In this document: one piece after another, positions 34,719-58,127 of the stretch | Layout of the letters: every line of letters starts with the position of its first letter | How positions within the stretch are numbered: the stretch's first letter is position 1 | NCBI GenBank assembly: GCA_003133385.1 | Contig: PKXF01000008.1 | Span: 31,270-95,269 of the forward strand | Length of the DNA stretch: 64,000 nucleotides | Reading direction: 5' to 3' | From: Candidatus Saccharimonadota bacterium | GTDB lineage: Bacteria > Patescibacteriota > Saccharimonadia > Saccharimonadales > UBA4665 | Notes under the pieces: model-generated | The model's input: the letters and a program-made list of their open reading frames with translations, nothing else | Told to the model about the DNA's origin: nothing | Databases searched by the model: none | Translations under genes and position numbers: made by a program

Positions 34719-34725
34719 AGTAATG

Positions 34726-36798: not shown

Positions 36799-37080
36799 AG
36801 TGGTGCTTGGTTGTACAAAGCCTGTGTGTAAGCTGTGGTCAGTATGTGCGCGGCTAGCGGTTTTACCCACACACCTTTACGTTGAGTCGCGAGTCTTGTT
36901 CATAAGCAGCCGGCTTTTGCAACAAGTTATACGTTGGACTGCCACATGGTTATCCACCCCATTTATGAGCAGTTCCCGTCTGTTGGCTTCTGGTTTTTAC
37001 CCAGTTTCCACAAGACCAACAAATACTACTACAAGTTTTATAAATTTATTTAAGTTTAATTGTTATAGCGGGGTATATTT
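36799..37080. other. Candidate origin region, right part: DnaA-box-like sites and AT-rich stretch
   Basis: The 282-nt dnaA-dnaN spacer. It holds TTACCCACA (36863-36871), TTATCCACC (36950-36958) and GTTTCCACA (37004-37012), all one mismatch from DnaA boxes, followed by a stretch at 37021-37068 that is about 85% A/T and could be the unwinding element. The arrangement of boxes then AT-rich DNA matches many bacterial origins, and the dnaA-dnaN position is a common one. No gene is seen here. Confidence 0.65.
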
Positions 37081-38175: not shown

Positions 38176-38200
38176 GGCTTCACCCAGGCATACCAAGACG

Positions 38201-38206
38201 TATAAT
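38201..38206 (+). promoter_or_regulatory. -10 box of recF, leaderless
   Basis: Perfect TATAAT ending 6 nt before the recF ATG at 38213, exactly the spacing that puts the predicted transcription start on the A of ATG. No ribosome site; no clear -35. Confidence 0.62.
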
Positions 38207-38212
38207 ACCTCT

Positions 38213-41187: not shown

Positions 41188-42435
41188 TCACGGAGAGCCT
41201 GCGTGACTAGTCTGCGAGGGCGGAGGTAAAGAAAATGTCTGCTCCGCCCATGTGGCAAAGTCTAGCACCATTTGGGACGGATTGGATACCCCGCTCTCTG
41301 CCAAGGGGTTAGTGGGCGTACCGGCGGATCCATCAACAGCCACGCCCCACTCGATCTGCCCACTGCCGTCCGATGTTGTACCGTAGGCATTCCCGTATGG
41401 CGAAGGCGCTGGGTCGGCAATCGGTGTACCGGCAGTGACATGGCCACTCGTTACAATAGGCTTAAGCCCCTCGGCGAAATAAAGGGTAGAGGTTGGTAGC
41501 CCCTGTGGCTGCTGGTCGGCCTTAATCTCCATATAACCACCCCAGTTGGAGAAGGAATTGGCGGCGTAGGTTATCGTGCCCGAAAACGGCGCTACGAGCT
41601 GTCCCTTAAACGTTCCGTCGTAGCCCATATCCAACCGGTTCGGCGTCCACCCTCCAGGGAAGGGGCTAGTAAAGCCCGTTGTGGTGGTGGTAGTGCTAGA
41701 GCAATTCCCACCAGTCGAGGGCGGGCTACCTGGGCTACCGCCAGTTGCGTATTGTGGGAACAGATTTGCAGCAACGCTACCCCGATCCGAACAGCTTATA
41801 TCAGCTGTGTTACACGCCTCATAACCAATTCTAAACAAAACTGCAGCCTGGCTTGCGGCGTTAGCGTCATTACCGGTTATCTGCTTTAAGCCATCAAGGG
41901 TACTCTTGTAACCTGTGCTAAGTTCTTGCCACATGAATAGCAGCTGAACCAACATGTCCGTTACCGGCTTGGGCGGCTGCTGGGCGGCTGCAAAAGCTAT
42001 TAAAGGAGCCTGCCTAGCCGTGTAAGTCCATTGTGCAATTCCAAAAGCAGTACCATTTGTTGGAGGTGCTCCATTCGTAGGATCTACGCCGGACTCGTTT
42101 ATTAAGTTGGCCAGAATACCAACAGACTGAGCTGGCGTTAGTCCCTCGGCAATGAAAAAATTATAGGCTTCATGTTCATGATCACTGCCGGTCAACGATG
42201 TTATACTCCCCCCCGTAGCACCAGTAGAGCTGCCACCACAGTTAGAAGCTACCCAGTGTGTCCATGTGTTTAGAGCCTGGAGCTCAGATGCCGGGAGTGG
42301 CACTGGCGGGGGCAGAGGCGCAGCAAAAGCATGGTGATCGTTCGACCCTAAAGTCAGCAAAAAGCATATAGCAAGCACTAATGCAGCGACAGTCCTACTC
42401 GGCATACCTGAAACTATATTGGCGCTTTTTTTCAT
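41188..42435 (-). CDS. Secreted phage-tail-lysozyme-like protein with a degenerate M23-like domain
   Basis: 415 residues. Signal peptide (about 1-39, ending HAFAAP). Residues 85-230 match the phage tail lysozyme family: ILANLINESGVDP with the probable catalytic Glu115, then GIAQWTYTARQAPL. Residues 262-390 follow the M23 (LytM) plan, GYDG…APFSGTIT…YFAEG…IEWGV, but all zinc-binding residues are missing: MGYD replaces H-x-x-x-D, and IEWG replaces H-L-H. The same replacements occur in the gene upstream. Likely acts on peptidoglycan through its lysozyme domain, with the C-terminal part as a binding module. It starts directly after the upstream stop. Confidence 0.78.
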   Translation of the reverse strand: MKKSANIVSGMPSRTVAALVLAICFLLTLGSNDHHAFAAPLPPPVPLPASELQALNTWTHWVASNCGGSSTGATGGSITSLTGSDHEHEAYNFFIAEGLTPAQSVGILANLINESGVDPTNGAPPTNGTAFGIAQWTYTARQAPLIAFAAAQQPPKPVTDMLVQLLFMWQELSTGYKSTLDGLKQITGNDANAASQAAVLFRIGYEACNTADISCSDRGSVAANLFPQYATGGSPGSPPSTGGNCSSTTTTTTGFTSPFPGGWTPNRLDMGYDGTFKGQLVAPFSGTITYAANSFSNWGGYMEIKADQQPQGLPTSTLYFAEGLKPIVTSGHVTAGTPIADPAPSPYGNAYGTTSDGSGQIEWGVAVDGSAGTPTNPLAESGVSNPSQMVLDFATWAEQTFSLPPPSQTSHAGSP

Positions 42436-45400
42436 TTAAAGACCCTGCACCCAACTATCGAAACTTGTGCCGCATGGAGTCGGTATGCCAATCGGGCACA
42501 TGAATCCCTCGGTTGGACTTTTCCCCCAACCAATCTCAATTCCTGGGCTCTGGTCGTTATGGCCAATGACATCACCCTTATTTACGTGTACCCCAACATT
42601 TATACTACTATTGATCTGGATAAGCTCTGCAAAATAAATGAACTGGCTACTACTGGGAGCATTTGGAGGTTGATCCAATTTTTCTATAATCTCGGCCTGT
42701 CCAGTGGTTCGGTCAAAATGATGCCCTGTTTGATCGGCTAACGTTATGGTTCCGGACGCGGGCGCGCAAATATCAAACCCGCTGCTTCCAGAGGGAACAA
42801 AATCGATTCCTTGGTCAACGCCAGCAAAACTTGAACCCGAACCCACAAGGGAAGAATATTTTCCACTACCGCCACATCCTGGTCCTGGCGATGTGCTACC
42901 ACTGCTCGTGCCCCCATTAATGTCAGCTTGGTCATCCGGAGTTAACAGACTGCTGTCGTATATTGCCCCGGCACTGCCAACAGCAGACTTAATAAGCATG
43001 CAAGGATTGACTGTAGCGTTTGTCGGCTGGCCGTTGTCAGGATCTGTTGTAGTGTCATCGTTCCAGTACTTATCCCCGGCATTTATCTGTGCCTGCGTAA
43101 GCGTTTTTTGATAACCCTGGGCGGCATTATCCGAACAATTAGCGTTCCAGTAAGCCTCAGGGTCTGAAGGTACGCTGTTGCCTGGGTAACCATACTGGGT
43201 AACGCCAAAAGCATCGGGTCCTGGTGTGGCGGCTGCAGCCGACCTGCCCGTTAGTAATGACCCGAAACTGCTAGACAAAGCACTAAGCGGATTAAGCAGG
43301 CTTGCAAACCCATCTTGGATAGAGGTAGATACGCCAAATGGGATAGCTTCAGCCACCTTAGATATTAACGAATACTGGGTGTCAGTGCTAAATAGCCTGG
43401 CAAACAGTGGCTGGGTTTGAAATTCCTTCTGGGCCTCTGTCTCTTGCTGCTGTGTTATAGCTGCCACTTGGCCCGGCGTTAGTTTCTGGCCGCCTAGGCC
43501 GGTGTGCGCAAAATCGTTGCCGGAAACATCCGCCCCAGCCGCCATCATGTCAAAGGTCCGGCCGCCACTTTCATCTGGCGATATTATCGAGGGGATAAGA
43601 TCGTTAGCTAGAGCTTTGAATATTGATGCGGCGGCATTTTTCGCAGATGATACCAGGCTAGAATCAACTAAATTGAGAAGGGCTTCGGCTCCGCTCAAGA
43701 TTGTGCCTGCAACGTAGCTAGTTGCGCTGCTTATTGCATTAAAAACAGTAGCGACAGGACTACTTTCATAGGCGTTTGCTATAGCCAATATGCCCGTGCT
43801 ACTAAGTACACTGTCGATTGAACTGATCGTTTGATTTTTTGCTCCGAGATTTTCCTCCGGACATACTGTTTTACCTGCCGGAACGGGTTTGTTGTCGTTG
43901 CACAGATAAGTTTTCGATTGGCCGGGCGAAGGATTGCCTTCAATCAGCGAACTATAAAGCGGTGTATTCTCTGCCTCGGCCGTACCGTTTACGGGCGGAC
44001 CGCTACACGTCTCAATTTCTGGCTGGCATTGATCGCCTGGGCCCAAGGAGTTGGTGAATGACCCAACCTCAGTAGCTGTAACGTGTCCGGTATGTATCTC
44101 GTCCGCATAACTTTGAAATAAGGTAAAGATACTAACGGCGGCGGCGGCGTTCACAAGGTAAGAATATGTTTGTAGTTTGTTGCCGGCGCCACCGGCTTCA
44201 TTTACAAAGGATAAGCCCTGATTTAACATTCCCAGTTCACCGACGACAGGAACCTCGTCAATAGCGTTAGTGCTAGTAAACTTAGTAATGACTTTGTTCA
44301 CAACATAGGTTTGGAGGCCTCCCTCTACTCGCACGTCAGATATTAATTGAATTAATTTATCGGCCGTTTCTGATCCGAAGCCTGACGATGCTTCTCCAAT
44401 GGCCTGCTCAACATTGGCGGCTGCTACGTCCTCTGTTTCACCAGCCAGCTCGTCACAAGTTGACGCAGCACAGGTTGTCGGGGCTTTGCCGTCACAGCCG
44501 TTATTAGCTACCAGAATGCAGCCTAAAACTGCGCTGAGGGCGGCACTGCGGGGCCCGACAACACGGTTAATCAAGAACATCTTGGCTGCATACTTTGCCT
44601 GAACCTTGGCGTTGGCGAAGGAATCCCTAACTCCACAATAGACCACACAACGTTTAATACCGTACTTTTCTTCAAGTAGACGACCAGCTTTGTAGCGGAT
44701 CATGACGTTATAAAAACTGGTTGCATCTTGTATAGACGCCCGCATATCGGCACGGCTGGCTTTATTAAACTCGCCGGCCAGGCCGTCTCCATTGGCGCCA
44801 ATAGGGTCGCCCTTTCCTGAAGTAGTGGGTGTTTTTAAATACCACTGACCTCTCCGGCCGTTTGCACTTCTGTCGAATTGAAATTCTATACCGTACTTTC
44901 TGGCAAGTTTATTCTCCAGGTTACCATTTCTCCAGCCTCTATAAAGCGCATGAACAGGGTTTGAGGTACCACCAGTAAGCGTATTGTTTAGGTAAGCGTT
45001 ACAGTGCCTGTCAATAACCGCAGTTGACCTTGCCCCACAAGCTCTAAGTGCGGGGAGCACATGATCTGTCATATAGTGGGTAAAGAGATTGTCTGTTTGT
45101 CTCTGAGTGGCACTAGTGGCCGTTGACATAAAGTGATGCTCTAAATTGGTTACAATACTTTCGATTTTTAGAGGTATCAATACTAAAAATGCCGTAACAA
45201 TCAAACTCATGATGCCGCCAATGATGCCGCTAATCAGGAAGTAGGTACGGTACTTGCGGAGTAAGCCGCCGCCGATTTTCCTGGATAAGCTACGAGGAGA
45301 CTGTCCCTTCACATCATTGATGAAAGAGAAATCATTTTTGAGGTCGGCCTTCTCGTCTTCGAATTCATCTGATTGAACAAATCCTTCAAGCTCTTTAAGG

Positions 45401-45642
45401 GCTTCAGGGGCAAGAGCATCGCCAATAGCGCTAGCTGCCCCATGGGCTCTAGATTTACCTGCTTCACCACGGCGCACATTATCAAGGCCATCGCCCCCGC
45501 GGGGATCTGACGGATTGTTAGCTGCAACGTCATTACCGCGAGGATCAGTTGGATTGCCCGCAGGCGTATTCTGACCTGCGCCCGAGTCTTCTGCGGGCGC
45601 GTATTCTTCGTCTGCCTCAGGACCGTAAACGTTTTGCGGCAT
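42436..45642 (-). CDS. Large membrane protein of T4SS cluster B with degenerate M23-like C-terminal domain
   Basis: 1068 residues from ATG 45642 (a TTG 21 nt upstream is the alternative). An acidic, Pro-rich, low-complexity N terminus (1-85) is followed by a basic stretch and a strong transmembrane helix near residues 125-150, a long Cys-containing extracytoplasmic region with further hydrophobic helices (370-400 and 630-680), and a C-terminal domain (about 928-1068) with VDQGIDF, APASGTIT, IYFAEL and IEIGWG. This is the M23/LytM outline without its histidines. The central part may fill the role of VirB10/TraG-like or bacteriophage-like murein spanning proteins, but no family is recognised. 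Sits between VirB4 and the lysozyme gene. Confidence 0.7.
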   Translation of the reverse strand: MPQNVYGPEADEEYAPAEDSGAGQNTPAGNPTDPRGNDVAANNPSDPRGGDGLDNVRRGEAGKSRAHGAASAIGDALAPEALKELEGFVQSDEFEDEKADLKNDFSFINDVKGQSPRSLSRKIGGGLLRKYRTYFLISGIIGGIMSLIVTAFLVLIPLKIESIVTNLEHHFMSTATSATQRQTDNLFTHYMTDHVLPALRACGARSTAVIDRHCNAYLNNTLTGGTSNPVHALYRGWRNGNLENKLARKYGIEFQFDRSANGRRGQWYLKTPTTSGKGDPIGANGDGLAGEFNKASRADMRASIQDATSFYNVMIRYKAGRLLEEKYGIKRCVVYCGVRDSFANAKVQAKYAAKMFLINRVVGPRSAALSAVLGCILVANNGCDGKAPTTCAASTCDELAGETEDVAAANVEQAIGEASSGFGSETADKLIQLISDVRVEGGLQTYVVNKVITKFTSTNAIDEVPVVGELGMLNQGLSFVNEAGGAGNKLQTYSYLVNAAAAVSIFTLFQSYADEIHTGHVTATEVGSFTNSLGPGDQCQPEIETCSGPPVNGTAEAENTPLYSSLIEGNPSPGQSKTYLCNDNKPVPAGKTVCPEENLGAKNQTISSIDSVLSSTGILAIANAYESSPVATVFNAISSATSYVAGTILSGAEALLNLVDSSLVSSAKNAAASIFKALANDLIPSIISPDESGGRTFDMMAAGADVSGNDFAHTGLGGQKLTPGQVAAITQQQETEAQKEFQTQPLFARLFSTDTQYSLISKVAEAIPFGVSTSIQDGFASLLNPLSALSSSFGSLLTGRSAAAATPGPDAFGVTQYGYPGNSVPSDPEAYWNANCSDNAAQGYQKTLTQAQINAGDKYWNDDTTTDPDNGQPTNATVNPCMLIKSAVGSAGAIYDSSLLTPDDQADINGGTSSGSTSPGPGCGGSGKYSSLVGSGSSFAGVDQGIDFVPSGSSGFDICAPASGTITLADQTGHHFDRTTGQAEIIEKLDQPPNAPSSSQFIYFAELIQINSSINVGVHVNKGDVIGHNDQSPGIEIGWGKSPTEGFMCPIGIPTPCGTSFDSWVQGL

Positions 45643-45673
45643 GTTGGTTTCTCTTAACCCCAATCACAGGTAA

Positions 45674-47611
45674 TTATACACTTCCGGCACTTCCTGGAGA
45701 TAGCCGGTTGCCGAGGTCCACGGTGCCTTGCTGCTGATTAAGCTCACCGGACTCATCCGCAGCGTTCGCGGCCTGTACTTGTTCGGGGTCCGTTGTAATT
45801 AACCCGGTTTCGGTCGAACTGGCTATAACTTGCAGATGTACATGGCTTTGGCCAGCAAAGAACAGGCCTTGCCCCACGGGGAACTGGCTGAGAAGTTTCC
45901 GCTCCTCACTAGTCAACTTAAAGACATCTGACAATACATCCACGGCAGTCGGCGACTGCTTGAGCAGGAACTGCATAGAAGCGTTAGCCACAATTGCCCG
46001 GCCCATTCGCGAACCCATGAAATCCTCAACATCCTGGGTGATAGTAGTAATTCCTAAGTTGTATTTACGGGCACGTTTGGCCAAACTAAATAGGAAGTTC
46101 GCTGAATCCTCGTATTTCATAAGCTGCCAGGCTTCATCGACAATCAAAATACGGCGCTTTTGATCGGTCTTGGTCTTATTCCAGATGTAGTTAAGAACAA
46201 TGTACATAGCAACTGGCCTTAGTTCATCTTCTAAGTCGCGTAGATTGAAAACAACCATAGGGTTGTTAATGTCTATATTGCTTTGCTGGCTGAAGATACC
46301 AGCAAATGTACCGGTGGTGTACTTGCGAAGTCGTTGGGCTAGCTGAGGTCCGGTGCCGCCCATGTGCAGCAGAGTGTCATACAGTTCGCTAATAGTCGGA
46401 GGTGTACCGTTATGCGTAAGAGGGTCATTAGTAATACCGGCCTTGGCATAAGTTCCGATCAGGGCAGCATCTAAGTCGGCTTCCTCGCTTGGTGCGAGCG
46501 CCGGCATCATATTTTGGTTTCCCCCTTGCATCTCGATCTGTGCGCCACCCATCATCAAGCGGATTAACCCGTGTAAAGTTATGAGATTAGTTCTAAGGGC
46601 GTTGTCGGCCTCTTCGGTGTCAACGACTTTAGGTAAATCAAAAGGATTGATACGGGTGTTTGAGTTTAGGCTGAGCCGTACATATGCACCACCGACTGCG
46701 TCACACATCCGCTGATATTCGTTTTCTGGGTCGATAATAAATATCTCGGTACCAAACATCATGCTCCGCAGGGCCTCAAGCTTAACTGTAAAACTCTTAC
46801 CGGCACCGGATTTTGCAAACACTACCGAGTTGCCATTTTCCAGGGAGAAACGGTCGAATATGACTAGCCCTGAGTTATGCATGTTAATGCCATATAGAAT
46901 GCCGCTGTCCTGGCTTAAATCAGCACTTGTGAACGGAAAACTGGTACTAAGGGCCCCAGTATTCATGTTGCGCCTGACCTGCAGCTGGTCAACCAGCTGA
47001 GGCACCGTACTATTCAATCCTTGTTCTTGTTGCGAGCTAGCCGGCTTGCTATAAACAAGCTGTTGGCCTAGCATTGACTCAACCTTGTGAGATATGAATT
47101 CTAGCTCCTCTAAGCTACCGGCATAAATAGTGAAGTATAGCCCAAAGCGGAAGAACCTTTCTTCGCCAACTTGCAGTTTGTCGCGCATCTCTTCAGCGTC
47201 CAGGATCGCGGCTTGCTTGCCTGGATCACGCACTCGGCCTTTCTCGCTATCAATTTGGATACCCGCTTCCAGCTGGGTAACTTTCTTCCGGAGATTTTCC
47301 AGCACAACTTGGCTCTCGACCGGGTAAATGTACATGCTTATATCTACGACTTCGTCAAGATTTACCATACTGCTCAGCCAGCCCGTATAGACCTGACGGG
47401 GATAACCATAGACATAGTAGCTGCGTGCGTACCTTGTTCCGAGTTGAAAATGAGTGCTGCTAAACTCAAGCGAACTGGGTGCAATGAAGTCACGCAGCGC
47501 AGTAATACCTTTCTGAAAGGCTGTCTGAACCTCTTGTTCTTCCTGGACGCGCTGCGCCTGGGCCGCAGCCGCCGGATCTACCGGCTGCTTCTTGTTCCTA
47601 CCGAAGGCCAT
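45674..47611 (-). CDS. VirB4/TraC-family T4SS ATPase, cluster B
   Basis: 645 residues; paralogue of the cluster A VirB4. Walker A FAKSGAGKSF near residue 268, the arginine-containing ENEYQRMCDAVGGAYVRL, and Walker B RILIVDEAWQLMK near 490, then TQDVEDF. The N-terminal TGWLSSMVNLDEVVDIS and GRVRDPGKQAAILDAEEMRDKL segments align with cluster A's SSGWLNNLVNFNHNVDVA and GKIVGPEITDPLQSAMTLRDK. It starts on the last base of the TraC-like gene (TAATG). C-terminal 30 residues are an extra acidic/Gln-rich tail. Confidence 0.92.
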   Translation of the reverse strand: MAFGRNKKQPVDPAAAAQAQRVQEEQEVQTAFQKGITALRDFIAPSSLEFSSTHFQLGTRYARSYYVYGYPRQVYTGWLSSMVNLDEVVDISMYIYPVESQVVLENLRKKVTQLEAGIQIDSEKGRVRDPGKQAAILDAEEMRDKLQVGEERFFRFGLYFTIYAGSLEELEFISHKVESMLGQQLVYSKPASSQQEQGLNSTVPQLVDQLQVRRNMNTGALSTSFPFTSADLSQDSGILYGINMHNSGLVIFDRFSLENGNSVVFAKSGAGKSFTVKLEALRSMMFGTEIFIIDPENEYQRMCDAVGGAYVRLSLNSNTRINPFDLPKVVDTEEADNALRTNLITLHGLIRLMMGGAQIEMQGGNQNMMPALAPSEEADLDAALIGTYAKAGITNDPLTHNGTPPTISELYDTLLHMGGTGPQLAQRLRKYTTGTFAGIFSQQSNIDINNPMVVFNLRDLEDELRPVAMYIVLNYIWNKTKTDQKRRILIVDEAWQLMKYEDSANFLFSLAKRARKYNLGITTITQDVEDFMGSRMGRAIVANASMQFLLKQSPTAVDVLSDVFKLTSEERKLLSQFPVGQGLFFAGQSHVHLQVIASSTETGLITTDPEQVQAANAADESGELNQQQGTVDLGNRLSPGSAGSV

Positions 47612-48657
47612 TACTTAAGCTCCCTTTGTAAATGAGCCTGCTGTGCGGCTCCCTGACCCTTAGTGACAACATCGGCTGTCAGGCTGTCAAAGTGTTTCAA
47701 CTTCTGCCGCGTCGCGGTGTCAGGGTTATAGCTGTCGTAATACAGCTCGATTAGTTCCTGGGTATCAAGCGGTAAACCTTGGATACCACACTGTTGTAAA
47801 CCAGCCAGCGCAGCTTGCACCCGGTTGCGTAGCTCTGTTTTAGCTTTTTCGAGATCGGCTTCGTTAATTACGACATGCTGATCGCTGCGGTCAAACAGCT
47901 TGGTTACGCCCGAAAGAAAGTTCTTATTTTGGGTTAAGACCTTCTGTACTTCTACAACCGGGAAGTAAGGGATTACTATATAAAAGTTCTTGTCCATAAT
48001 GTTGGTCTGTTGGCTAAGAGCATCCATGTAGTCGATGTAATCTTCCATCAAAAGAGCCAGCAGCATGTTATCGTGTTCTGAGCGTATTTTATCGAGCCGC
48101 TCAATGTAAGGCCGAAGATCAACTTTGCGGGAGCGTATGAATATTTGGACCGGGAAGTACAATGAATTTAAGAAGCCCTGATAAGCGTATTCGACTGCTT
48201 CTTGTTCTTGCGGGCTCATCAGGTCGAAGTTGATGCTTTTAACCATTACAACCGAACGGTAAGAACCATCGTTCATGATGACAAAACCGTCGCGAACCTC
48301 GGCGATCTGCAAGGTATTTTGGGTACTGTTCGGACTTGTCTTGAGTTTAGGCATTGATTTGCCTGGGCTGGTCGTTACCGAGGGCGCAGCTCCAACTACA
48401 GGTGCCGGAGGAACAGGCGGCTGACTAGCCGTTTGCGGCGGTGGCGGCGGAACTGATGGTTGATATACGGCGGGAGCTGGCGGCAGGGGTGCTGGCTGCT
48501 GCGGTAGGGGCTGTTCTGCATACTGGGGAGGTTCTGGCGTCAGGCCGTAACGCGGTTCGGCCGTACTCACAATAGTTACTTGCGATGGATCATAAGCAGG
48601 CTCACCAACTGGCTGTCCGCCAGTTGCGGGGTCAGGGTTGTTTATTGAGGGATTCAT
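47611..48657 (-). CDS. TraC-like/VirB4 N-terminal domain protein, cluster B
   Basis: 348 residues. A Pro/Gln-rich, probably disordered N terminus (1-110, with a run of five prolines near residue 75) precedes a folded domain: GFVIMNDGSYRSVVMVKSI, PQEQEAVEYAYQGFLNSL, FPVQIFI, and YDSYNPDTATRQ. This matches the cluster A protein at 32397-33011 in order and spacing. The split of VirB4 into two genes is thus conserved in both clusters. Confidence 0.78.
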   Translation of the reverse strand: MNPSINNPDPATGGQPVGEPAYDPSQVTIVSTAEPRYGLTPEPPQYAEQPLPQQPAPLPPAPAVYQPSVPPPPPQTASQPPVPPAPVVGAAPSVTTSPGKSMPKLKTSPNSTQNTLQIAEVRDGFVIMNDGSYRSVVMVKSINFDLMSPQEQEAVEYAYQGFLNSLYFPVQIFIRSRKVDLRPYIERLDKIRSEHDNMLLALLMEDYIDYMDALSQQTNIMDKNFYIVIPYFPVVEVQKVLTQNKNFLSGVTKLFDRSDQHVVINEADLEKAKTELRNRVQAALAGLQQCGIQGLPLDTQELIELYYDSYNPDTATRQKLKHFDSLTADVVTKGQGAAQQAHLQRELK

Positions 48658-48706: not shown

Positions 48707-49759
48707 TTAGTGGAGTGAAATGACAACTTCGCCATTTCCAGACTCGTTATCTTTGGCTTTCTTTGCCTCGCGAGCGATCGTAGAGACATTGAGGTCGTCG
48801 TTATTTGCCAAAGCTAGTATAGCAGGGTGAGGTGGTGCTGTCATCGCAGTTGGACTAGGTTGAGGCGCAGGTGCCGCTACTGCGCTAGCCGATTTAACTG
48901 CCTGCCGGCTGTCACTAAGAGGTCTAAGGGTGCGCAAGTTGCCATAAATGGCCTGTTTAATGTCAGCGTTAGCATGTATTTGAGCAGCTAAGTCGGGGTC
49001 ATCTGCCGCTGCCGCAGTTACAGGAGCAGTAGCCACAGCTGCAGTACCGCCGCTTCCCATAAAAAACCACGTTGGATCAGAAGCTACTGCAACAGAAGGC
49101 TGCGGCGCAGCAGTGTCGTTCATCTTGGCAACCAATTGTTGGCGGTACAGTTGGCTGGACTGCGCAATCATATTGTCAAATTGGTGGGCTATAGGATTAT
49201 TTTGCTCGTCAAGCATGTCATCGCTGGCCTGGACAATGGTGTCCGGCACAGCATCTGGCACGTCACTGATGTCTACCAACCTATCAGAGCTGGTAAAGAT
49301 TAATGGATTTGGCGCGTAGTTGGTGATGTTAACGTTTTTAATTGCCCAGCCACGGCTATCAATTGTACTAGCTAGGGCTTTTAGGCGGCTCTGAATCTCT
49401 GTTTGGCTGAGGCCATCGGTATATACATGCTCAATTTTCTTCGGCACGGTTATGGTAACCAGTTCCTTGACGCCGCTTTGATTCCACATACGCTTACGGG
49501 GCTTGAAAAAAAACCGTAGCTTAGCTAGAGCCCAAATTTCAGTTGGCTGGTCACCACCAAAAGGAACCGCAAAGAAGCCTGTTAATAGTAACGGGGGCAG
49601 AAAAATGATAAGCAAGAAAAACACATGCTTGACTATGCTAATAAAACAAAGGTATGCAAAGAATGTTGTTACTAGCGCAAAGATAAATTGCCTTAGCGTC
49701 AACGGGCCGAGAATTTTATCTTCAGCCTCAATATCTTGAATGAGTTTGTATGTTGCCAC
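48707..49759 (-). CDS. PrgI family (VirB3-like) T4SS membrane protein, cluster B
   Basis: 350 residues. The N-terminal 110 residues are PrgI: YKLIQDIEAEDKILGPLTLRQF, two helices (about 28-46 and 48-66), VPFGGDQPTEIWALAKLRFFF. Residues 110-350 form a soluble extension with Ala/Pro-rich linkers and the NADIKQAIYGNLR motif shared with cluster A, which has a much shorter tail. GTG start; a TATAAG hexamer lies 5 nt upstream (49770-49765, minus strand), so an internal leaderless promoter is possible. Confidence 0.82.
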   Translation of the reverse strand: MATYKLIQDIEAEDKILGPLTLRQFIFALVTTFFAYLCFISIVKHVFFLLIIFLPPLLLTGFFAVPFGGDQPTEIWALAKLRFFFKPRKRMWNQSGVKELVTITVPKKIEHVYTDGLSQTEIQSRLKALASTIDSRGWAIKNVNITNYAPNPLIFTSSDRLVDISDVPDAVPDTIVQASDDMLDEQNNPIAHQFDNMIAQSSQLYRQQLVAKMNDTAAPQPSVAVASDPTWFFMGSGGTAAVATAPVTAAAADDPDLAAQIHANADIKQAIYGNLRTLRPLSDSRQAVKSASAVAAPAPQPSPTAMTAPPHPAILALANNDDLNVSTIAREAKKAKDNESGNGEVVISLH

Positions 49760-49802: not shown

Positions 49803-51503
49803 TTAATGGGCAAATTCCTGGCGTAGCAGCCGGCCAATTTCCACCTTGTCTTTGTAGCCAAGCTCACCGTCCTCCGATGTAATTTTGCTTAGGATGGCGT
49901 CAAGCTGGTTTTTAATGGCGTGTGGCATTTTCAAATCTTTCATGAGTTTATCATCTTTAATAACTACATACCGCTCTTTTATGACCTTCGTGAATTGGCC
50001 GTTAGGCAATTGGACAATTTCCTCACCTAGTTGGGCTAGTTTACGCTTAACTAACATATTAGCGAAGGCCGCACCTACACGATCATCAATAAGCTCTTGC
50101 TGCTTCTCCATATGCTTAGGTCCATAGCCAAACGGCGAACCCTCTTCAATACCAGCATCCTTTGACGTAACCTGATCTGCGTACTGGGGTTGAGCCAGAT
50201 AGTACTGCTTAGCCAGATCCCATAGAACCCAGCTAACGCTGTCATCTTTTTCAGGCGGCAAGCCTATCTTTTTAGCGTCAGCCGCGTAATTGCTTTTAAT
50301 GCGTTTTGCCAGCTCAATCAACCGCGCAGGGCCAAATTCTTCAGATAAATCAATCAAAGCTAGAGCACGTTCATCGTGATGAGGGTGTTCATTAAACTGA
50401 CGCTTCCGTTCGTCCAACTCAGCACCAGTATAAATATCCCCACCGCTCAATAGATCAGTTGCATTGTCTGCATCAAGAACGTGGCCTACAATAAGACCAC
50501 TCTTCACATCAAGCTTTCCACCTATGTGGCTGACTTTAGGACCATACCAATTATATTTGGCTCTGCTTAGGGTGATGTTGCCAAGCCTGCGGAACTGTGC
50601 CCGCTGGTCCATTTCTGCTCCGTTGACACGGAAGTGAATGTCAAGGATATTTCTCTCGGTACGGTCCAGGACTTGCCGAACATTAGAAGCCGATATCATG
50701 CTTCGGCTAAGCGGGCCGTCGTTATTTGACTTTTGGACCTCAAAGTAGCGCTTTTTAACCCAGCCATCAAAAGTACGTTCTGAGATGGTAACATCTCGCA
50801 ATATCTCCGATTGCTCGAGTTCCCCATCGGTATTATACGTTCGATAGTGAAGGCCGCTCCAGTCGCTAAGGTCATTGGCTTGTTGTGTTTCCTGGACGTA
50901 CTGCACTGTAGTTTTATCATCTTCTTTCGGAGTAATATTTGTGGGGACACGAACATTAATACGGCGGTCTCGTGGCGGTTCTTTCCGTTGCTCTTCCTGC
51001 CACCAAAAGTCAACTCCGTAACCAGACTTATCCCTGTTGACAAGAGTATCTATGTAGTCATCAAACTCTGTAGCAGGCAATGCCTCGACTTTAACAAGTC
51101 TGTCCTTAACCGGCTCATCGGCTGGCCGATTACCATCATAAACATCTACGTATAGTGTATCTGCAATCTCGGTCTCTGTTTCGTGTATTTCGCGACGACC
51201 ACGGCCAACTAGGCCTGACCGTTTCCGCACTATAGGGCCTACAAGGCGCGTACTTGAGACGGGTTTACCGGTCTGGGGATCAATAACAGCCCGGCGTTCA
51301 GCACCTCGATCTCTAACGACATAGATTCTGCCGTCATTTACCCAGGACAAGCCGTTGTGATCAACAATTCCAAGATTAGCTTCGGTAGTTTGAATCTGTT
51401 GTGACGCAGGCTGAGCCATGTGTTTGTTGACATTCAAGAAACGGGTCGGATCGGATTCCGAAGCCGGTATTGGTTCAGCTGAGGGAGGAGCGTGTTCTAG
51501 CAT
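49803..51503 (-). CDS. Unknown 566-residue soluble protein in T4SS cluster B
   Basis: No family recognised. No signal peptide or transmembrane segment. The protein is acidic to neutral and Asp/Arg-rich, with possible beta-rich N-terminal part (DHNGLSWVNDGRIYVVRD, DPQTGKPVSS) and a helical C-terminal third (residues 400-566; KHMEKQQELIDDRVGAAFANML, VVIKDDKLMKDLKM). It has no counterpart in cluster A, where TrbL is followed directly by PrgI. A cytoplasmic role at the base of the machine, or an effector, is possible. Driven by the best promoter in the window. A start at the downstream ATG (MAQPASQQ) is possible. Confidence 0.6.
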   Translation of the reverse strand: MLEHAPPSAEPIPASESDPTRFLNVNKHMAQPASQQIQTTEANLGIVDHNGLSWVNDGRIYVVRDRGAERRAVIDPQTGKPVSSTRLVGPIVRKRSGLVGRGRREIHETETEIADTLYVDVYDGNRPADEPVKDRLVKVEALPATEFDDYIDTLVNRDKSGYGVDFWWQEEQRKEPPRDRRINVRVPTNITPKEDDKTTVQYVQETQQANDLSDWSGLHYRTYNTDGELEQSEILRDVTISERTFDGWVKKRYFEVQKSNNDGPLSRSMISASNVRQVLDRTERNILDIHFRVNGAEMDQRAQFRRLGNITLSRAKYNWYGPKVSHIGGKLDVKSGLIVGHVLDADNATDLLSGGDIYTGAELDERKRQFNEHPHHDERALALIDLSEEFGPARLIELAKRIKSNYAADAKKIGLPPEKDDSVSWVLWDLAKQYYLAQPQYADQVTSKDAGIEEGSPFGYGPKHMEKQQELIDDRVGAAFANMLVKRKLAQLGEEIVQLPNGQFTKVIKERYVVIKDDKLMKDLKMPHAIKNQLDAILSKITSEDGELGYKDKVEIGRLLRQEFAH

Positions 51504-51622: not shown

Positions 51623-54310
51623 TTACGGTCCTAAGTCAGGCATTGGAGGTTCAGGTTGCTGGGGATTAAGCATGTCTGGTGAAGCTGCCCGTCCACCAAA
51701 GCCCAAATTCTTCATACCTACTTCCTCAGCAATACTCTGTACTTTGCGACCTACATCGGTGTCGCCAACAGCGTAAGAAGCAATGTAACGGATGCGTTCC
51801 TGAGCAGCTTGGGCCTGAGCTGCTTGCACCGGATCTTGTTTCAATACCTTTTCGCCGGCGCCATTTTCTTGAGGAACTAATTTGCCATCTTTCATTTCCA
51901 TCTCATAAGGTGAGGCTGCAACTATCATCGTATCCCTCAAAGCATCTACGGCTTCTGACTTACCGCTGGCCAGCTCTTGAGCCGATATGCGCATAAATGA
52001 CTTTTGGGCTTCCGAACTAAGAGGATTCTGATAAACGTCGGTGGACCCCATGGTGCCATCTTCATTCCTAACATATAGGGTGCCATGGCCCCTGGCTTGT
52101 TCGGTACGCTTCTGGGTAGCTGCGTCACGCAGCAAGTTCTCTCGGGTTACGGCAAAACCACCCGTGACGCCAAGCGCCCTTTGCTGAGTACCTGATATCT
52201 CTTCATTCTCCAAACGCCCGGCTTTGGCGGCTGCAAGCAAGCCAACGGTCTCCAGGTCGGCGCGCTGAGTTTCTTCCTTGCCAGCTCCCTTGAAGCTACC
52301 CAACAAAGATGCCTTGCCTTGTAGTTCGGCAGCTGCATAGTGAGAGTTTTGCCCCCAGCCCTCGGAATAAATTTCACCGAGCCTTTGAGCATCTTTCTCG
52401 CCCTCAGCTGCCCTAAATATTTCATTACCGTTTCCATCTAATGCAGGCGATCCATCGGAATTCTTAACGCCAAAGTCATGTTGCAAGGCGGTATGCATTT
52501 TATCGTAGCCTGCCCTTGCTGCGGCATCAGAGCCATTAGCATCCTTTTTGAACTTTAGGCTGCCATCTTCATTCTTACCGTCAGTAAATTCATCCAAAGC
52601 ATAGTGGTGCAGGCCAGCCAGGGCTCGTCCGGATGAGTAGTGGAGGTTGGCCTGCTGTTCGGCTTTTTGGCTATGCTGGACTCTTTGCTCTGCAATTTTG
52701 TTTTCCAGTATGCGGCCCTTGCGCCCAAATGCCCAGCCAAAACCTCGTTTGGTGCCAAGGAATGCCGATCCGCTATCGCCAATATCAATAGAGTAGTTAC
52801 CGACTCTATTGGCAAACCGTCCGAGACGGTGATCGTTGCGGTATAATCCGCCAGTCTGGGCGGCCTTAACGCGCTCTTGGGTCCTGCGTTTACGCTGTTC
52901 GCTTAGAGCTTTAAAGCCGCCTTGGGCGCGGTTCTGGATAGCGCCGCCGATCTGACCCATAAGGGCGCCAGAAAGCTTAAAGGTCATCGGTATCATAAAA
53001 TACGGAGCAAAATAAGCTATGAAACCAATAAACTGATTAATAACCCCTGGCCTGCTGAACGTAACGGCAGCAAAAACCCTGCCAGTGGCAATCATTGCGG
53101 CAATCATGGGGAACATTAGCAGGGCTCTACTGAAATTCGACCACCAGAACTTATACATTTGCTGGGTGCGCGGCAGTATGTACGCGACAATAGCAATCGG
53201 AGACACCAGGATGAGCAGAATAATTACAATCTGCCTAAGCGTAAGGACTAAAATAGCCACAACGACCGCCAAAGCGGCGGTAGCGGCAAGCGATATGAGT
53301 GCCCCAAGACCTCCAAAGGCAATCCAAACAGGAATGGCTGCTAACGTGCCCCCGGCAACGGCCCCAGCACCAAAGAAGAAGTTAGCCGCATTGCCGCCGA
53401 AACTTAAATCAGGGGCGTTATGTATTTGGGTAAACGGATAGTATATAAGATGCCTTACGCCAATACCGAGAACATCGGAGGCCGTGACGGCAAAATTCAT
53501 TAAGGGCCAAGAAATAGTTATGCCGATGGCCGCCACCAACAACCTAGGCAAGGTCTTTTTTATGGTATAGGCATCAAGTATCTCCATACCCAAGGCTTCG
53601 GATATTACAATGATAAGACCAGCAACTACTAAGAGTCCCAGTGCAATGTCGCGGAATGATTGCCAAGCAGAATAATATGCGCCACATGTGGCACTGGAAC
53701 AAAAAATCGTACCCGTTTTTATATTCATCTGCGCGGTTATTAAATTATCAACACCGCTGACTATGCCCGTTAGGGCGTCAACAACAGGGCATATGACCCA
53801 GGTCAGAGGATTGTCCCATTCAAGGGTGCAGCTTAGGTTGCTGCTAGCATTTCCGGTAGTAGGAGACGGACTTGTAGCATTTGTAGTATCGGTAAGCGTA
53901 ATAGGTTGCGGAGCGCCACCATATTCGGGTTCACATTTATACCCCGTGGATTTGCCGACGTTCATTTTCACCCAATGGCTTAAAGTAATTGTTCCTTTTG
54001 AGGGGTCACTACTACTGGCAGTTATGGTATTGGGGCAAATAACGCCGCTTGTCACGGTACCACTAGGGCCAATTGTCTGACCAGGACTGGGCGCGTAGTA
54101 GTCAAAATTACCGGTTCCATCTTTATTGTAAGTAGCATGTTTCCCTGTTGAAGATCCAATTATTATGGTATTTTCATCAACCCATTGCCCGGTAAATGAC
54201 GCGGCAGAGGCTTTTCCGCTTGCAAAACTTGCAAAAAGCGGCATGATTGGCGTAACAAGTATCAAACTACCTATAGCAAGTAGTAGGAATTTTTTGGTAA
54301 TTCCTTTCAT
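51623..54310 (-). CDS. TrbL/VirB6-like large membrane protein, cluster B
   Basis: 895 residues. Signal peptide-like start (1-37), an extracytoplasmic domain (40-180) with one cysteine pair, then six to eight transmembrane helices between about 215 and 460 (DIALGLLVVAGLIIVISEALG, LRQIVIILLILVSPIAIVAYI, KFWWSNFSRALLMFPMIAAMI), the core of TrbL/VirB6. A long charged cytoplasmic C terminus (460-895) is rich in Gln, Glu, Ala and Arg, ending PQQPEPPMPDLGP. First gene of cluster B on this strand; 412 nt divergent from the pilin array. Confidence 0.75.
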   Translation of the reverse strand: MKGITKKFLLLAIGSLILVTPIMPLFASFASGKASAASFTGQWVDENTIIIGSSTGKHATYNKDGTGNFDYYAPSPGQTIGPSGTVTSGVICPNTITASSSDPSKGTITLSHWVKMNVGKSTGYKCEPEYGGAPQPITLTDTTNATSPSPTTGNASSNLSCTLEWDNPLTWVICPVVDALTGIVSGVDNLITAQMNIKTGTIFCSSATCGAYYSAWQSFRDIALGLLVVAGLIIVISEALGMEILDAYTIKKTLPRLLVAAIGITISWPLMNFAVTASDVLGIGVRHLIYYPFTQIHNAPDLSFGGNAANFFFGAGAVAGGTLAAIPVWIAFGGLGALISLAATAALAVVVAILVLTLRQIVIILLILVSPIAIVAYILPRTQQMYKFWWSNFSRALLMFPMIAAMIATGRVFAAVTFSRPGVINQFIGFIAYFAPYFMIPMTFKLSGALMGQIGGAIQNRAQGGFKALSEQRKRRTQERVKAAQTGGLYRNDHRLGRFANRVGNYSIDIGDSGSAFLGTKRGFGWAFGRKGRILENKIAEQRVQHSQKAEQQANLHYSSGRALAGLHHYALDEFTDGKNEDGSLKFKKDANGSDAAARAGYDKMHTALQHDFGVKNSDGSPALDGNGNEIFRAAEGEKDAQRLGEIYSEGWGQNSHYAAAELQGKASLLGSFKGAGKEETQRADLETVGLLAAAKAGRLENEEISGTQQRALGVTGGFAVTRENLLRDAATQKRTEQARGHGTLYVRNEDGTMGSTDVYQNPLSSEAQKSFMRISAQELASGKSEAVDALRDTMIVAASPYEMEMKDGKLVPQENGAGEKVLKQDPVQAAQAQAAQERIRYIASYAVGDTDVGRKVQSIAEEVGMKNLGFGGRAASPDMLNPQQPEPPMPDLGP

Positions 54311-54589: not shown

Positions 54590-54643
54590 TAGAAAACGCC
54601 TATGATATACAAAGTCAAACAAAAAATTACCAGGCGTTTTCTA
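54590..54643. repeat. 12-bp perfect inverted repeat at the pilin promoter
   Basis: TAGAAAACGCCT (54590-54601) and AGGCGTTTTCTA (54632-54643), separated by 30 nt. It covers the predicted start of transcription of the pilin array. It could be an operator for a dimeric regulator or form a 5' stem-loop in the message. It is not a terminator because no T-run follows. Confidence 0.7.
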
Positions 54644-54722: not shown

Positions 54723-55184
54723 ATGCTCCGGACTCTCAATAAAAACATACTGCTTACGGCTGTTACCCTGCTGACCATATTTGGTTTAGCTGCACTTGTA
54801 AGTCCTTATCAGGCTCAGGCACTAAGCAGATCAGAAAATAGCAGCACAAGACCGTTGGGTTTTGAAATTGTACATTTGCGCAACGTTGCTGCAGCCTGTA
54901 CGCCAAGCAGCTGTAAAGATACAGCCATTGACTGCTCTAGTAGTAACTGCAATCTCATCCAGGAATACGTTGTCCCGACCATAAATTTACTATCGGTAGC
55001 GTTTGGTCTAATTGCAGTGATCTCTCTTCTCTTAGGAGCTATTAATTACATTGCCTCCGAAGGCGATCCGCAAAAAGTCTCAAGGGCAAAGACGCGCATT
55101 AGAAACACCATTTTTTCTATTGTCGCCTTTATGTTTTTGTACGCCTTCCTCAACTTCTTAATACCGGGGGGTATATTTCAGTGA
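54723..55184 (+). CDS. Pilin-like protein 1 (VirB2/TrbC type), cluster B array
   Basis: About 153 residues from ATG 54723 (a TTG 30 nt upstream is an alternative start). Signal peptide ends near AQALS. An extracytoplasmic Ser/Cys segment holds four cysteines (ACTPSSC, IDCSSSNC), followed by helix 1 (about 88-108), the loop GAINYIASEGDPQKVSRAK and helix 2. The loop is the family hallmark. No ribosome site in the CA-rich leader. First of six tandem pilin genes; stop overlaps the next start (GTGA). Confidence 0.72.
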   Translation: MLRTLNKNILLTAVTLLTIFGLAALVSPYQAQALSRSENSSTRPLGFEIVHLRNVAAACTPSSCKDTAIDCSSSNCNLIQEYVVPTINLLSVAFGLIAVISLLLGAINYIASEGDPQKVSRAKTRIRNTIFSIVAFMFLYAFLNFLIPGGIFQ

Positions 55185-55708
55185 TACTAGTCAAGTTTGC
55201 CACAAGGATTAAAGCTAAACACCTGCTAACTATACTTGCGTTAACTGCTGTTTGTCTTTCAAGCTTTAATATCTTTGGTAGCCCCAAAGTTCACGCTCAA
55301 TCACCGACCCAAACTGTCGCAAGCTGCAAAAAAGACTTCTTTGGCCTAGAGCCCTGGTATCAGTATCTTGGTGTTGAGCTGAACACTAACGGCTCGTGTG
55401 AGTTCAAATGTTTTAACATATTCACTCCTGGTAATGGTGTTGGCCAACAAGCCAACAAATGCGGACAAAACTCTTCCAGCGACATCCCCCTGATTTTACT
55501 TGCAGTTGTGGATGACCTGCTCAGGATTGCTGGAATAACCGCCGTCGCTTTCGTAATTTATGGCGCATTTGAGTACGTAGGCAGCCAGGGGAATTCGGAG
55601 GTTACTGCTAAGGCACAATCCATGATAATCAATGCCCTGATCGGTTTAGCAGTTGCTACGATTGCGGTTGTCGTAGTCAACTTCATAGGGAATAATATAG
55701 GGACATAG
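55181..55708 (+). CDS. Pilin-like protein 2, cluster B array
   Basis: 175 residues, GTG start coupled to the previous stop. Signal peptide cleaved near KVHAQS, then a region with four cysteines (ASCKKDFF, GSCEFKC, NKCGQN), helix 1 (about 103-125), the diverged loop GAFEYVGSQGNSEVTAKAQS, helix 2. The largest extracytoplasmic part of the array, so possibly a tip or adhesin-like minor pilin; this is inference. Confidence 0.7.
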   Translation: MILVKFATRIKAKHLLTILALTAVCLSSFNIFGSPKVHAQSPTQTVASCKKDFFGLEPWYQYLGVELNTNGSCEFKCFNIFTPGNGVGQQANKCGQNSSSDIPLILLAVVDDLLRIAGITAVAFVIYGAFEYVGSQGNSEVTAKAQSMIINALIGLAVATIAVVVVNFIGNNIGT

Positions 55709-55719
55709 GCAAAAATAAA

Positions 55720-56013
55720 ATGAGCACAATTCTACACATTTTAGCGACCGCCCCAATAACCTCAAACCAAGTTCAAAGTTTACCGATGCCACATACTGCT
55801 GGGGTAATTCAACAAGCTCTCACCATAGTGTTTGGTGTCATTGGGGCCTTTGCGCTGCTAATGATAACAGTTTCGGGCTTACGTTACGTGCTTTCATCAG
55901 GAGACCCCCAGAAAACAGCCCGGGCCAAGGACGGCATAGTATATTCATTAGTAGGGATAGCGGTAGCAGTAGCAGCAGAATCTATAGTTCTGTTCGTGGC
56001 GAATAAATTATGA
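55720..56013 (+). CDS. Pilin-like protein 3, minimal form without signal peptide or cysteines
   Basis: 97 residues; helix 1 (about 33-52), loop SGLRYVLSSGDPQKTARAKD, helix 2 (about 75-96). The N-terminal 30 residues lack a clear cleavable signal and have no cysteine, so it differs from its neighbours. It may be an inner-membrane assembly subunit or platform. Overlaps the next start (ATGA). Confidence 0.68.
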   Translation: MSTILHILATAPITSNQVQSLPMPHTAGVIQQALTIVFGVIGAFALLMITVSGLRYVLSSGDPQKTARAKDGIVYSLVGIAVAVAAESIVLFVANKL

Positions 56014-56405
56014 TCAAGCGAATAATATTTACACTATTACTTATCAGCGGCTGTATTGTGGCTGCTCCCCTTTCGGCACAAGCCGGCTCAAATATAGTAG
56101 GCACAGTTTGTAACGGCAACAATAATACGGGCAGCTCGGCAGTCTGTACTGATACTAAGAATGTTAATCCCTCCACTAACCCTATAATTGACAGATTTCA
56201 GAAGATTACCCTCATCGTTGCATATGTCGCCGGGGCTGCAGCTGTACTAATGCTTTTAGCCGGCAGCCTAAAATATATAACTGCGGCCGGCGATAGTAAT
56301 AAGATTAGCAGTGCCAAAAACACTATAATTTACGCACTCGTCGGTATAATCGTTATCGTGTTGGCCGCCTCAATAATAGAATTTGTTGTAACTAAGATAA
56401 AATAG
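56010..56405 (+). CDS. Pilin-like protein 4, cluster B array
   Basis: 131 residues. Signal peptide ending near SAQAGS, a short Asn/Ser-rich segment with one cysteine pair (VCNGNNNTGSSAVC), helix 1 (about 68-88), loop GSLKYITAAGDSNKISSAKN, helix 2 ending EFVVTKIK. Coupled to gene 3; 21 nt before gene 5. Confidence 0.74.
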   Translation: MIKRIIFTLLLISGCIVAAPLSAQAGSNIVGTVCNGNNNTGSSAVCTDTKNVNPSTNPIIDRFQKITLIVAYVAGAAAVLMLLAGSLKYITAAGDSNKISSAKNTIIYALVGIIVIVLAASIIEFVVTKIK

Positions 56406-56426
56406 ACTATAGGAGCTCATCTATTT

Positions 56427-56876
56427 ATGAAATACATCAAACAAAAGTTAAAAATATTCCTACCGCTATTTTTCATATTAAGTATGCTTGGCGGCCAGGC
56501 AATTATTCCTGCGAGCGCTTTCGCATGTGGTAATCCGAGCGGTTCATCTACGGATCAGGTAATAAACGGAGCTAATCCTAATGGTACGGACTGTGGTGGC
56601 AGCGGCATTACTAAAATAGTTAGGGCCGCCGTCACCGTTTTAAGTATCATCATAGGAGCGGCAGCTGTTCTCATGATAGTAGTTAGTGGTCTTCGGTATA
56701 TAACTTCCAGTGGCGATTCCGCCAAAGTCAGCGCCGCCAAGACCACCCTAATATACGCTCTTGTTGGCGTAGCTATAGCGGCACTCGCTCAGCTTCTAGT
56801 CCATTTTGCCCTAAATCAATCCAGAAGCGCGATTAGTTCAACAACCATAACGCCTACAGTTGAAAAATACTACTGA
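56427..56876 (+). CDS. Pilin-like protein 5, cluster B array
   Basis: 149 residues. Signal peptide ending near PASAFA, cysteine pair (FACGNPSG and GTDCGGSG) in a Gly/Asn-rich segment, helix 1, loop SGLRYITSSGDSAKVSAAKT, helix 2 LLVHFALNQ. It is closest in sequence to gene 6 (both end in QxxVHFxLNQ), so the two are probably a recent duplication. Confidence 0.76.
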   Translation: MKYIKQKLKIFLPLFFILSMLGGQAIIPASAFACGNPSGSSTDQVINGANPNGTDCGGSGITKIVRAAVTVLSIIIGAAAVLMIVVSGLRYITSSGDSAKVSAAKTTLIYALVGVAIAALAQLLVHFALNQSRSAISSTTITPTVEKYY

Positions 56877-56935
56877 AGATTTACGAATTAACTGCATAGC
56901 GACAGCCTTAGTAGGTTATGGACAAATGCAAAAGC

Positions 56936-56964
56936 TTGATTCCCGCTTACGCTTGTAGTATAAG
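56936..56964 (+). promoter_or_regulatory. Separate promoter for the last pilin gene
   Basis: TTGATT, exactly 17 nt, TATAAG, with a leader of about 40 nt and a GAAAGG site before ATG 57010. It makes pilin 6 an independent transcript followed by its own terminator, consistent with it being the major, more abundant subunit. Confidence 0.6.
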
Positions 56965-57009
56965 TTAAGGAAGTGCAAGTCTAAAAAATAGAATAGAAAG
57001 GTAACCTTT

Positions 57010-57459
57010 ATGATCAATAAATTTAGAAGTTATGCGCTCAGTATACTTACAGTGTTAACTTTCCTGACTCCAACGCTAGTGCCTGCCATTGCTCACGCAG
57101 CCGCTGCACCAACTACTCCTACATGTTCAACTACTGGTAGTGCCGTTAATTCCGGTGCAAATTTGGGAACCACAACCGGTGCCGTAACATGTGGTAGCAG
57201 TGCTGGGGTTTCTAATAGTGCTATTTCTACTGATGCAAGAAAGTTAGTCAACCTTTTTTCAATAGTTGTCGGTGCTGTATCAGTTATCATGATAATCTAC
57301 GGTGGATTTCGTTATATCACCTCGGGTGGTGATAGCGGCAGGGTTGGTAATGCCAAAAACACTCTCATCTATGCCATTGTCGGCCTGGTAATCGTAGCCC
57401 TTGCCCAAGTAATAGTACACTTTGTACTCAATCAAACTTCCACTGTCGTTTCGACTTAA
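57010..57459 (+). CDS. Pilin-like protein 6, probable major subunit, cluster B
   Basis: 149 residues. Signal peptide ending near AHAAAA, a Thr/Gly/Ser/Asn-rich segment with a cysteine pair (PTCSTTG and VTCGSS), helix 1 (about 84-102), loop GGFRYITSGGDSGRVGNAKN and helix 2 VIVHFVLNQ. The loop is the closest in the array to that of the cluster A pilin (GGFRYITSSGN). It has its own promoter and terminator. Confidence 0.77.
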   Translation: MINKFRSYALSILTVLTFLTPTLVPAIAHAAAAPTTPTCSTTGSAVNSGANLGTTTGAVTCGSSAGVSNSAISTDARKLVNLFSIVVGAVSVIMIIYGGFRYITSGGDSGRVGNAKNTLIYAIVGLVIVALAQVIVHFVLNQTSTVVST

Positions 57460-57496: not shown

Positions 57497-57526
57497 GAAA
57501 ACCCCCTAGTTTAAAAGGGGGTTTTC
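57497..57526. terminator. Bidirectional rho-independent terminator
   Basis: GAAAACCCCC (57497-57506) pairs with GGGGGTTTTC (57517-57526) around a 10-nt loop; the stem is flanked by A and T runs so it can stop both the pilin transcript and the convergent hsp20 transcript. It is the only strong intrinsic terminator noticed in the window. Confidence 0.9.
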
Positions 57527-57555: not shown

Positions 57556-58035
57556 CTATAAGACTTGGATTTTCTTGACCGTGTCCTGTTGGACTTTGCC
57601 GAAGCTTATGGTCAGAACTCCATCTTTGAGGACAGCCTCAATCTCTTCTTCTTTTACTGGTACCGGCAGTGCAATGGTGCGAGAGAACTCGCCCCAGTAA
57701 CATTCTTGCAAGAAGTAATTCTCAACACCCTCTTCGTTTCCAGAAGTCAATGTTCCACGAATGGTTAGCTGGTTGTCAGAAATACTCACATCAAGATCGT
57801 TCTTACTAACACCCGCTGTCCTTGCTTTAACAACAAGTTTCTCACGAGTTTCGTAGACATCTACCGCCAATTGTCCTGGCACGGTCTCCTCTTCATCCCA
57901 TTCATCGTCAGCCGCCGGGGCGCTTGCATCTTGCGAAGGCTCTTCGACGGGCAGACTGGCGTCATCACCCAAAAAAGCTGCAGTTAATTCATCTTCCTCG
58001 AGCAAAAGATCGTCGTCGCGATTACGTCGCGCCAT
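57556..58035 (-). CDS. Small heat-shock protein, Hsp20 family
   Basis: 159 residues. An acidic, disordered N terminus (1-50, rich in Asp, Glu, Ala) precedes an alpha-crystallin domain with VDVYETREKLVVKARTAGV near 63, the DLDVSISDNQLTIRG segment and the C-terminal GVLTISFGK; the IXI-like tail KKIQVL is present. ATG at 58035 is chosen since GGAGGG lies 8 nt upstream; a GTG at 58050 overlaps that site. Holdase chaperone, usually stress-induced. Confidence 0.9.
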   Translation of the reverse strand: MARRNRDDDLLLEEDELTAAFLGDDASLPVEEPSQDASAPAADDEWDEEETVPGQLAVDVYETREKLVVKARTAGVSKNDLDVSISDNQLTIRGTLTSGNEEGVENYFLQECYWGEFSRTIALPVPVKEEEIEAVLKDGVLTISFGKVQQDTVKKIQVL

Positions 58036-58127
58036 AGTTGTACCCTCCACAAGTTAATTAGTGTCAAAGCAATCTAACATCCCCGTTGTTGTAAGGATGA
58101 AAGTTCTTGCATTTTTGTGTTAGTAGC

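Follow-up and report, generated by a model that had tools for sequence, protein, structure and literature searches.

The six adjacent pilin-like genes of the window (the whole stretch of 64,000 nucleotides analysed here), named p1 to p6 in array order, appear to be dedicated components of a single appendage and not interchangeable variants, because the same gene order and the same separate identities recur across many genera. We consider it probable that they encode a heteromeric T4SS pilus in which p6 would be the main subunit, transcribed from its own promoter, and in which dedicated minor subunits would be built in beside it. This reading argues against switching among equivalent pilins, as has been suggested for such arrays in the literature.

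The pilin array and its T4SS surroundings

An initial annotation had described positions 54723-57459 as a tandem array of six genes for two-helix pilin-like proteins. The open reading frames, all on the + strand, and matches to the T4SS_pilin profile PF18895 bear this out, and the array is real (Table 1). All six proteins match the profile, five of them above its curated cut-off of 26.6 bits and p2 just under; judged by its orthology and synteny, p2 belongs to the family despite that score. On the profile evidence the homology of the array proteins is far beyond chance, and the pilin identity proposed in the annotation is upheld both by these matches and by linkage to T4SS genes. The VirB2/TrbC profile PF04956 was matched by p3, p4 and p6 at 18.7-23.1 bits (E 1e-4 to 2e-3) against a curated cut-off of 27.9, which no array member reached; the free pilin of the window's second T4SS (cluster A) came to 27.4 bits. 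A search of PHROGs profiles gave no match, NCBIfam gave sub-cut-off matches only, to a mycoplasma ICE pilin-like family, and a sequence search of the PDB with the array pilins found nothing significant.

Structure prediction, proposed in the annotation as a check and carried out with AlphaFold2, returned two long helices and a short turn for both proteins modelled. In gene 6 the helices span residues 69-104 and 109-148 (mean pLDDT 72, 42-sequence alignment) and in gene 2 residues 102-134 and 139-174 (mean pLDDT 76, 36-sequence alignment), with a four-residue turn in each. Signal-peptide-like N termini and two to four extracytoplasmic cysteines were found, as described, in genes 1, 2, 4, 5 and 6, and neither in gene 3. 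The loop motif that the annotation had assigned to these six proteins and to two further copies in cluster A held up in part: it is exact in genes 3, 4 and 5, and the other five of the eight copies deviate (the first position is A in gene 1, the end reads A-Q in gene 2, R replaces K/E in gene 6, and cluster A copies A1 and A2 also depart from it). A looser form, Y-x4-G-[DN]-x6-A-[KQ], covers most of the eight.

Table 1. Coordinates of the features discussed, by position in the window
Feature	Position	Strand	Remarks
VirB4 ATPase, second T4SS	30670..32400	-	TraG P-loop 85 bits
TraC-like N-terminal partner of second-T4SS VirB4	32397..33038	-	VirB4 split
PrgI, second T4SS	32986..33495	-	PF12666 33.1 bits
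Pilin-VirB6 fusion, second T4SS	33495..34751	-	PF18895 38.0 bits (N-terminal); TrbL/VirB6 domain 21.9 bits, below cut-off 25.9
Free pilin, second T4SS (cluster A)	34726..35067	-	PF18895 45.7 bits
dnaA, dnaN, recF	35371..39271		names read from translations
Peptidoglycan hydrolase, proposed VirB1-like role	41188..42435	-	Phage_lysozyme2 74.3 bits
1075-aa membrane-anchored protein	42436..45663	-	end of T4SS operon; no Pfam match; C-terminus peptidoglycan-peptidase-like by eye
VirB4-type ATPase	45674..47611	-	TraG P-loop 100.7 bits
VirB4 N-terminal-type protein	47611..48657	-	no Pfam match; by position and synteny
PrgI (VirB3-like)	48707..49759	-	PF12666 36.6 bits
566-aa protein	49803..51503	-	no Pfam match; between VirB6 and PrgI; homologue at one other examined locus (L070)
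VirB6/TrbL-like polytopic protein	51623..54310	-	no Pfam match; by topology and position
Inverted repeat	54592..54641		GAAAACGCC...GGCGTTTTC; divergent VirB6/array region; possible regulatory or hairpin element
Pilin p1	54723..55184	+	PF18895 29.5 bits; 4 Cys; C-terminal ...FLIPGG; frame opens at TTG 54693, ATG 54723 likelier start
Pilin p2	55181..55708	+	PF18895 23.3 bits, under cut-off; loop ends A-Q; C..FFGLxxWYxYL..C
Pilin p3	55720..56013	+	PF18895 50.1 bits; short, no signal peptide, no Cys
Pilin p4	56010..56405	+	PF18895 39.6 bits; one Cys pair
Pilin p5	56427..56876	+	PF18895 43.2 bits; one Cys pair; class shared with p6
Predicted p6 promoter	56936..56964	+	-35 TTGATT 56936-56941, 17-nt spacer, extended -10 TATAAG 56959-56964
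Strong Shine-Dalgarno AGAAAGG of p6	56995..57001	+	followed by ATG 57010
Pilin p6, proposed main subunit	57010..57459	+	PF18895 60.0 bits; one Cys pair
Terminator-like hairpin, between array and Hsp20	57502..57520		number of sites predicted no higher than in shuffles
Hsp20, convergent neighbour of array	57556..58050	-	PF00011 66.9 bits

The array is divergent from an operon for the VirB6-like protein, a 566-aa protein, PrgI and the N- and C-terminal parts of VirB4, and so shows the combination, tandem pilins near virB4 and other T4SS genes, by which Patescibacteria pilin arrays are recognised. Among 151 loci with at least three pilins, a VirB6 homologue is linked at 124, Hsp20 at 138, PrgI at 86 and the VirB4 parts at 49-64, counts in which many loci stop at contig ends and some genomes enter twice. 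Hsp20, convergent to the array at those 138 loci across the class, could be a pilin chaperone or could mark a conserved near-origin neighbourhood. The genome around the window (G000, with the window on its contig C14) is of Saccharimonadia type as judged by its nearest named relatives, belongs to an ultrasmall bacterium of the parasitic type and is 1.09 Mb in size; its dnaA, dnaN and recF genes lie between the window's two T4SS loci. An Rfam search found no RNA element, its one match being sub-threshold and implausible.

Both of the additional pilin copies that had been annotated in cluster A, the free pilin and the one fused to a TrbL-like protein, are real by their PF18895 scores. Another free pilin and pilin-VirB6 pair lies on contig C2, with the fusion at G000:C2:54907-56100. 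The second T4SS is patchily distributed among relatives; full-length homologues of the fusion occur in 12 of 60, and in two of these the aligned span is interrupted by one stop. A pilin tethered on VirB6 in this way would fit a role of VirB6 as assembly platform.

Positional orthology and fixed order

We compared the array with 40 array regions of relatives, each from another genus, and worked with the 28 loci, window included, that have exactly six members inside the applied length limit. When each array was scored with position profiles built without the genome under test, the best one-to-one assignment was 1-2-3-4-5-6 in 27 of the 28 genera; a random one-to-one assignment would give array order once in 720. 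The best match lay at the same position in another genome for p1, p2 and p3 in 27/28 cases each, for p4 in 17/28, for p5 in 9/28 and for p6 in 24/28, and p5 was nearest to a member of its own genome in 12/28. A FastTree phylogeny of 71-column cores, taken as supporting evidence since it is built on few columns and many of its forks are weakly supported, required 2, 2, 3 and 4 label changes for p1 to p4 versus about 26 after shuffling and placed p1 of 27 genera in a clade of its own; p5 and p6 mix in it, partly as same-genome pairs (L039, L042, L043 and L047). In a separate collection of 57 further arrays, 54 had their members in non-decreasing order (0.23 expected), p1-p4 were nearly always single-copy, and expansions fell mostly in the p5/p6 class.

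By these comparisons the array positions are orthologous across genera. We limit this statement to the order Saccharimonadales, because the p1-p6 labels blur in other orders of the class. The pilin family itself is widespread, with PF18895 matches in 54/60 relatives, 95/99 genomes of the class and 113/116 of the phylum.

Several positions carry features of their own. p1 combines a Cys-containing N-terminal segment with a C-terminal PGG, the extracytoplasmic p2 motif given in Table 1 is kept in 36 sequences with W59 invariant, and orthologues of p3 are signal-peptide-like in 6/28 and free of cysteine in 21/28. The most conserved member is p6 (median core identity 66% between genera), and the N-terminal segments differ strongly in length among orthologues. 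Neighbours have also been joined: a p1-p2 fusion occurs in five genomes and has one origin according to the PrgI tree, and a p2-p3 fusion occurs in two genomes, one of them a complete chromosome (CP025011). Fusion of neighbouring pilins is compatible with direct contact within one assembly. In family f26 (L146-L171), many genomes have a single inverted pilin past Hsp20, as a rule a p6-class member, which forms a separate transcription unit, and some arrays include double-pilin proteins; an upstream Shine-Dalgarno sequence of the p6 type was not seen at these lone, mostly p6-like pilins.

The p5-p6 junction

The p5-p6 junction is the sole one with a conserved gap. Across 50 arrays the median distances are -1 nt for p1-p2, -1 for p2-p3, -4 for p3-p4 and 9 for p4-p5, versus 73.5 nt for p5-p6. 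The motif T[GA]nTATAA, accompanied by a TTG-type -35, is present in this distal gap in 45 of 65 arrays, with 5.5 expected from first-order Markov resampling, and 41 of those 45 gaps have a T at the -35 position. At other array positions, including the mostly intergenic stretch 5' of p1, the motif is at or near chance. GAAAGG precedes 40 of 65 distal genes versus 3 of 332 other array genes. These promoter and Shine-Dalgarno counts were taken on the arrays in which the motif was first spotted, so that they show how conserved it is but are no independent confirmation; the signal is weaker in arrays with at least three p5/p6 members.

Because the -10 element of p6 ends in G, a consensus promoter scan passed over this promoter. 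The conserved motif predicts that p6 is transcribed separately, and a separate promoter motif together with a strong ribosome site for one member suggests that the subunits are made in unequal stoichiometry. Codon usage, scored against ribosomal-protein genes, does not single p6 out as a highly expressed gene (-0.084 versus a background of -0.050).

A probable heteromeric appendage and the competing readings

Arrays of this kind are already known and the present one is a further member, so the array as such is not new (PMC12102498, PMC10633639, PMC12857230). Quinonero-Coronel et al. (PMC12102498) count 441 Patescibacteria arrays, each made up of 2-11 VirB2-like pilins, with a within-array identity of 25% on average, and propose that they confer host versatility, by analogy with Bartonella and Anaplasma. 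In Candidatus Southlakia epibionticum ML1 the pilin series, six pilins according to PMC12857230, is essential by Tn-seq and reported to be needed for epibiotic growth (Wang et al., PMC10633639). As here, the published Patescibacteria arrays, that of S. epibionticum included, consist of proteins of the same Pfam family and stand in tandem beside VirB4, PrgI and VirB6, near dnaA. A cultured Saccharibacterium cannot do without its T4SS (PMC11665869), and of the T4SS components of N. lyticus TM7x, two are higher in the initial host encounter than in recovery (PMC10768705). The array accounts stress sequence variability, and the passages considered here describe neither positional orthology nor the promoter and Shine-Dalgarno sequence of p6, the p1-p2 and p2-p3 fusions or the linkage to Hsp20, which we add.

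The annotation had taken six genes to suggest a heteropolymer, tip variants or switching between subunits. Fixed-order orthologous positions, position-specific motifs, neighbour fusions and the essentiality published for S. epibionticum favour the heteropolymer. Switching fits poorly with p1-p4, given their same-position best matches and the lack of invertible repeats; within p5/p6 there may be variation. Phase variation as such is unsupported: invertible repeats are absent, and a single G6 run is the one slippage tract. A paralogue repertoire would consist of six equivalent pilins that differ so as to fit different hosts, the role proposed for the copies of Bartonella TrwL and Anaplasma VirB2. 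It would account for the low within-array identity, the strongly varied lengths of the N-terminal segments and the duplication and within-genome likeness of p5 and p6, and is the reading of PMC12102498. Yet p1-p4 are orthologous, fixed in order and nearly always single-copy, and in one species the counterpart of the array is essential (PMC10633639), and we judge a repertoire of all six unlikely. The TrwL and A. phagocytophilum pilins, also tandem VirB2-family members in host-associated bacteria, are read as variants (via PMC12102498), whereas four positions here are old orthologues with distinct features; the lineage-specific duplication that marks interchangeable copies is absent from p1-p4 and present, as duplication, in p5/p6. 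The repertoire model is thus weakened for p1-p4 and possible for p5/p6.

Rather unlikely, too, is an arrangement with no extracellular pilus, in which the proteins would assemble on VirB6 into a short hetero-oligomer serving as membrane channel or cell-wall conduit, with a fixed ring or segment for each position. The one-to-one order and the neighbour fusions would suit such fixed stoichiometry, codon usage gives no hint of an abundant p6, and no long T4SS filament has been identified: the published work on Saccharibacteria considered here attributes none to a T4SS, and PMC12206443 argues by elimination that in N. lyticus the thick pilus is unlikely to be one. That one member has a conserved promoter motif of its own and a strong ribosome site suggests instead unequal stoichiometry, and duplication is mostly limited to the p5/p6 class. 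That the six might be unrelated small membrane proteins with a coincidental loop is very improbable. The two-helix hairpin is a generic fold, and Foldseek found no significant match in the PDB (the Aeropyrum conjugation pilus 8dfu gave an insignificant E of 4.2), but profile homology in all six contradicts this reading, as do the T4SS linkage at 124 of 151 loci and the occurrence of the strict loop motif in 0 of 2050 non-pilin ORFs.

A heteromeric pilus or conduit is the simplest reading, and we propose that the main T4SS, of Patescibacteria type (monoderm, MPF-FATA-like), draws the subunits of its filament or channel from the array. Each pilin would be exported or inserted with both termini outside, and the conserved G-D...A-K turn would lie on the cytoplasmic, later the lumenal, side. 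With its predicted promoter and strong ribosome site, p6 would be the main pilin and p5 its duplicable partner, and the tightly packed, probably translationally coupled p1-p4 would be dedicated minor subunits. These four may form an ordered initiating or tip complex, or a base adaptor on VirB6, in place of VirB5-type parts, which were not recognised at the locus. Such a pilus would probably make contact with the host bacterium or penetrate it.

Conjugative systems with VirB2/TrbC pilins usually have one pilin gene each. With their predicted two helices, short positively charged turn and T4SS linkage, the array proteins recall those pilins (PF04956); the array differs in comprising six pilins, most of which have cysteines in the N-terminal segment, and in belonging to a monoderm-type T4SS. 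A main subunit with fixed dedicated minor ones would be analogous, by analogy only, to type II secretion and type IV pili, where GspG is joined by the minor (pseudo)pilins GspH-I-J-K, whose fold, motor and processing are unrelated to those of T4SS pilins.

If the six are dedicated parts and not variants, the system would be a heteromeric pilus or channel whose main subunit can be predicted, in which p6 could be tagged, p1-p4 deleted singly and the fusions used for structural work; this would also bear on the published idea that the array serves host-range versatility (PMC12102498). For the Saccharimonadales at large, we hold the chances to be even that the T4SS builds a heteromeric appendage from ordered, old, dedicated VirB2-like subunits, four minor ones and a separately transcribed main one. 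If so, the T4SS superfamily, whose characterised pili consist of one pilin, would include a minor-pilin system, and dedicated VirB2-like subunits would supply the tip or adaptor functions in place of VirB5-like parts.
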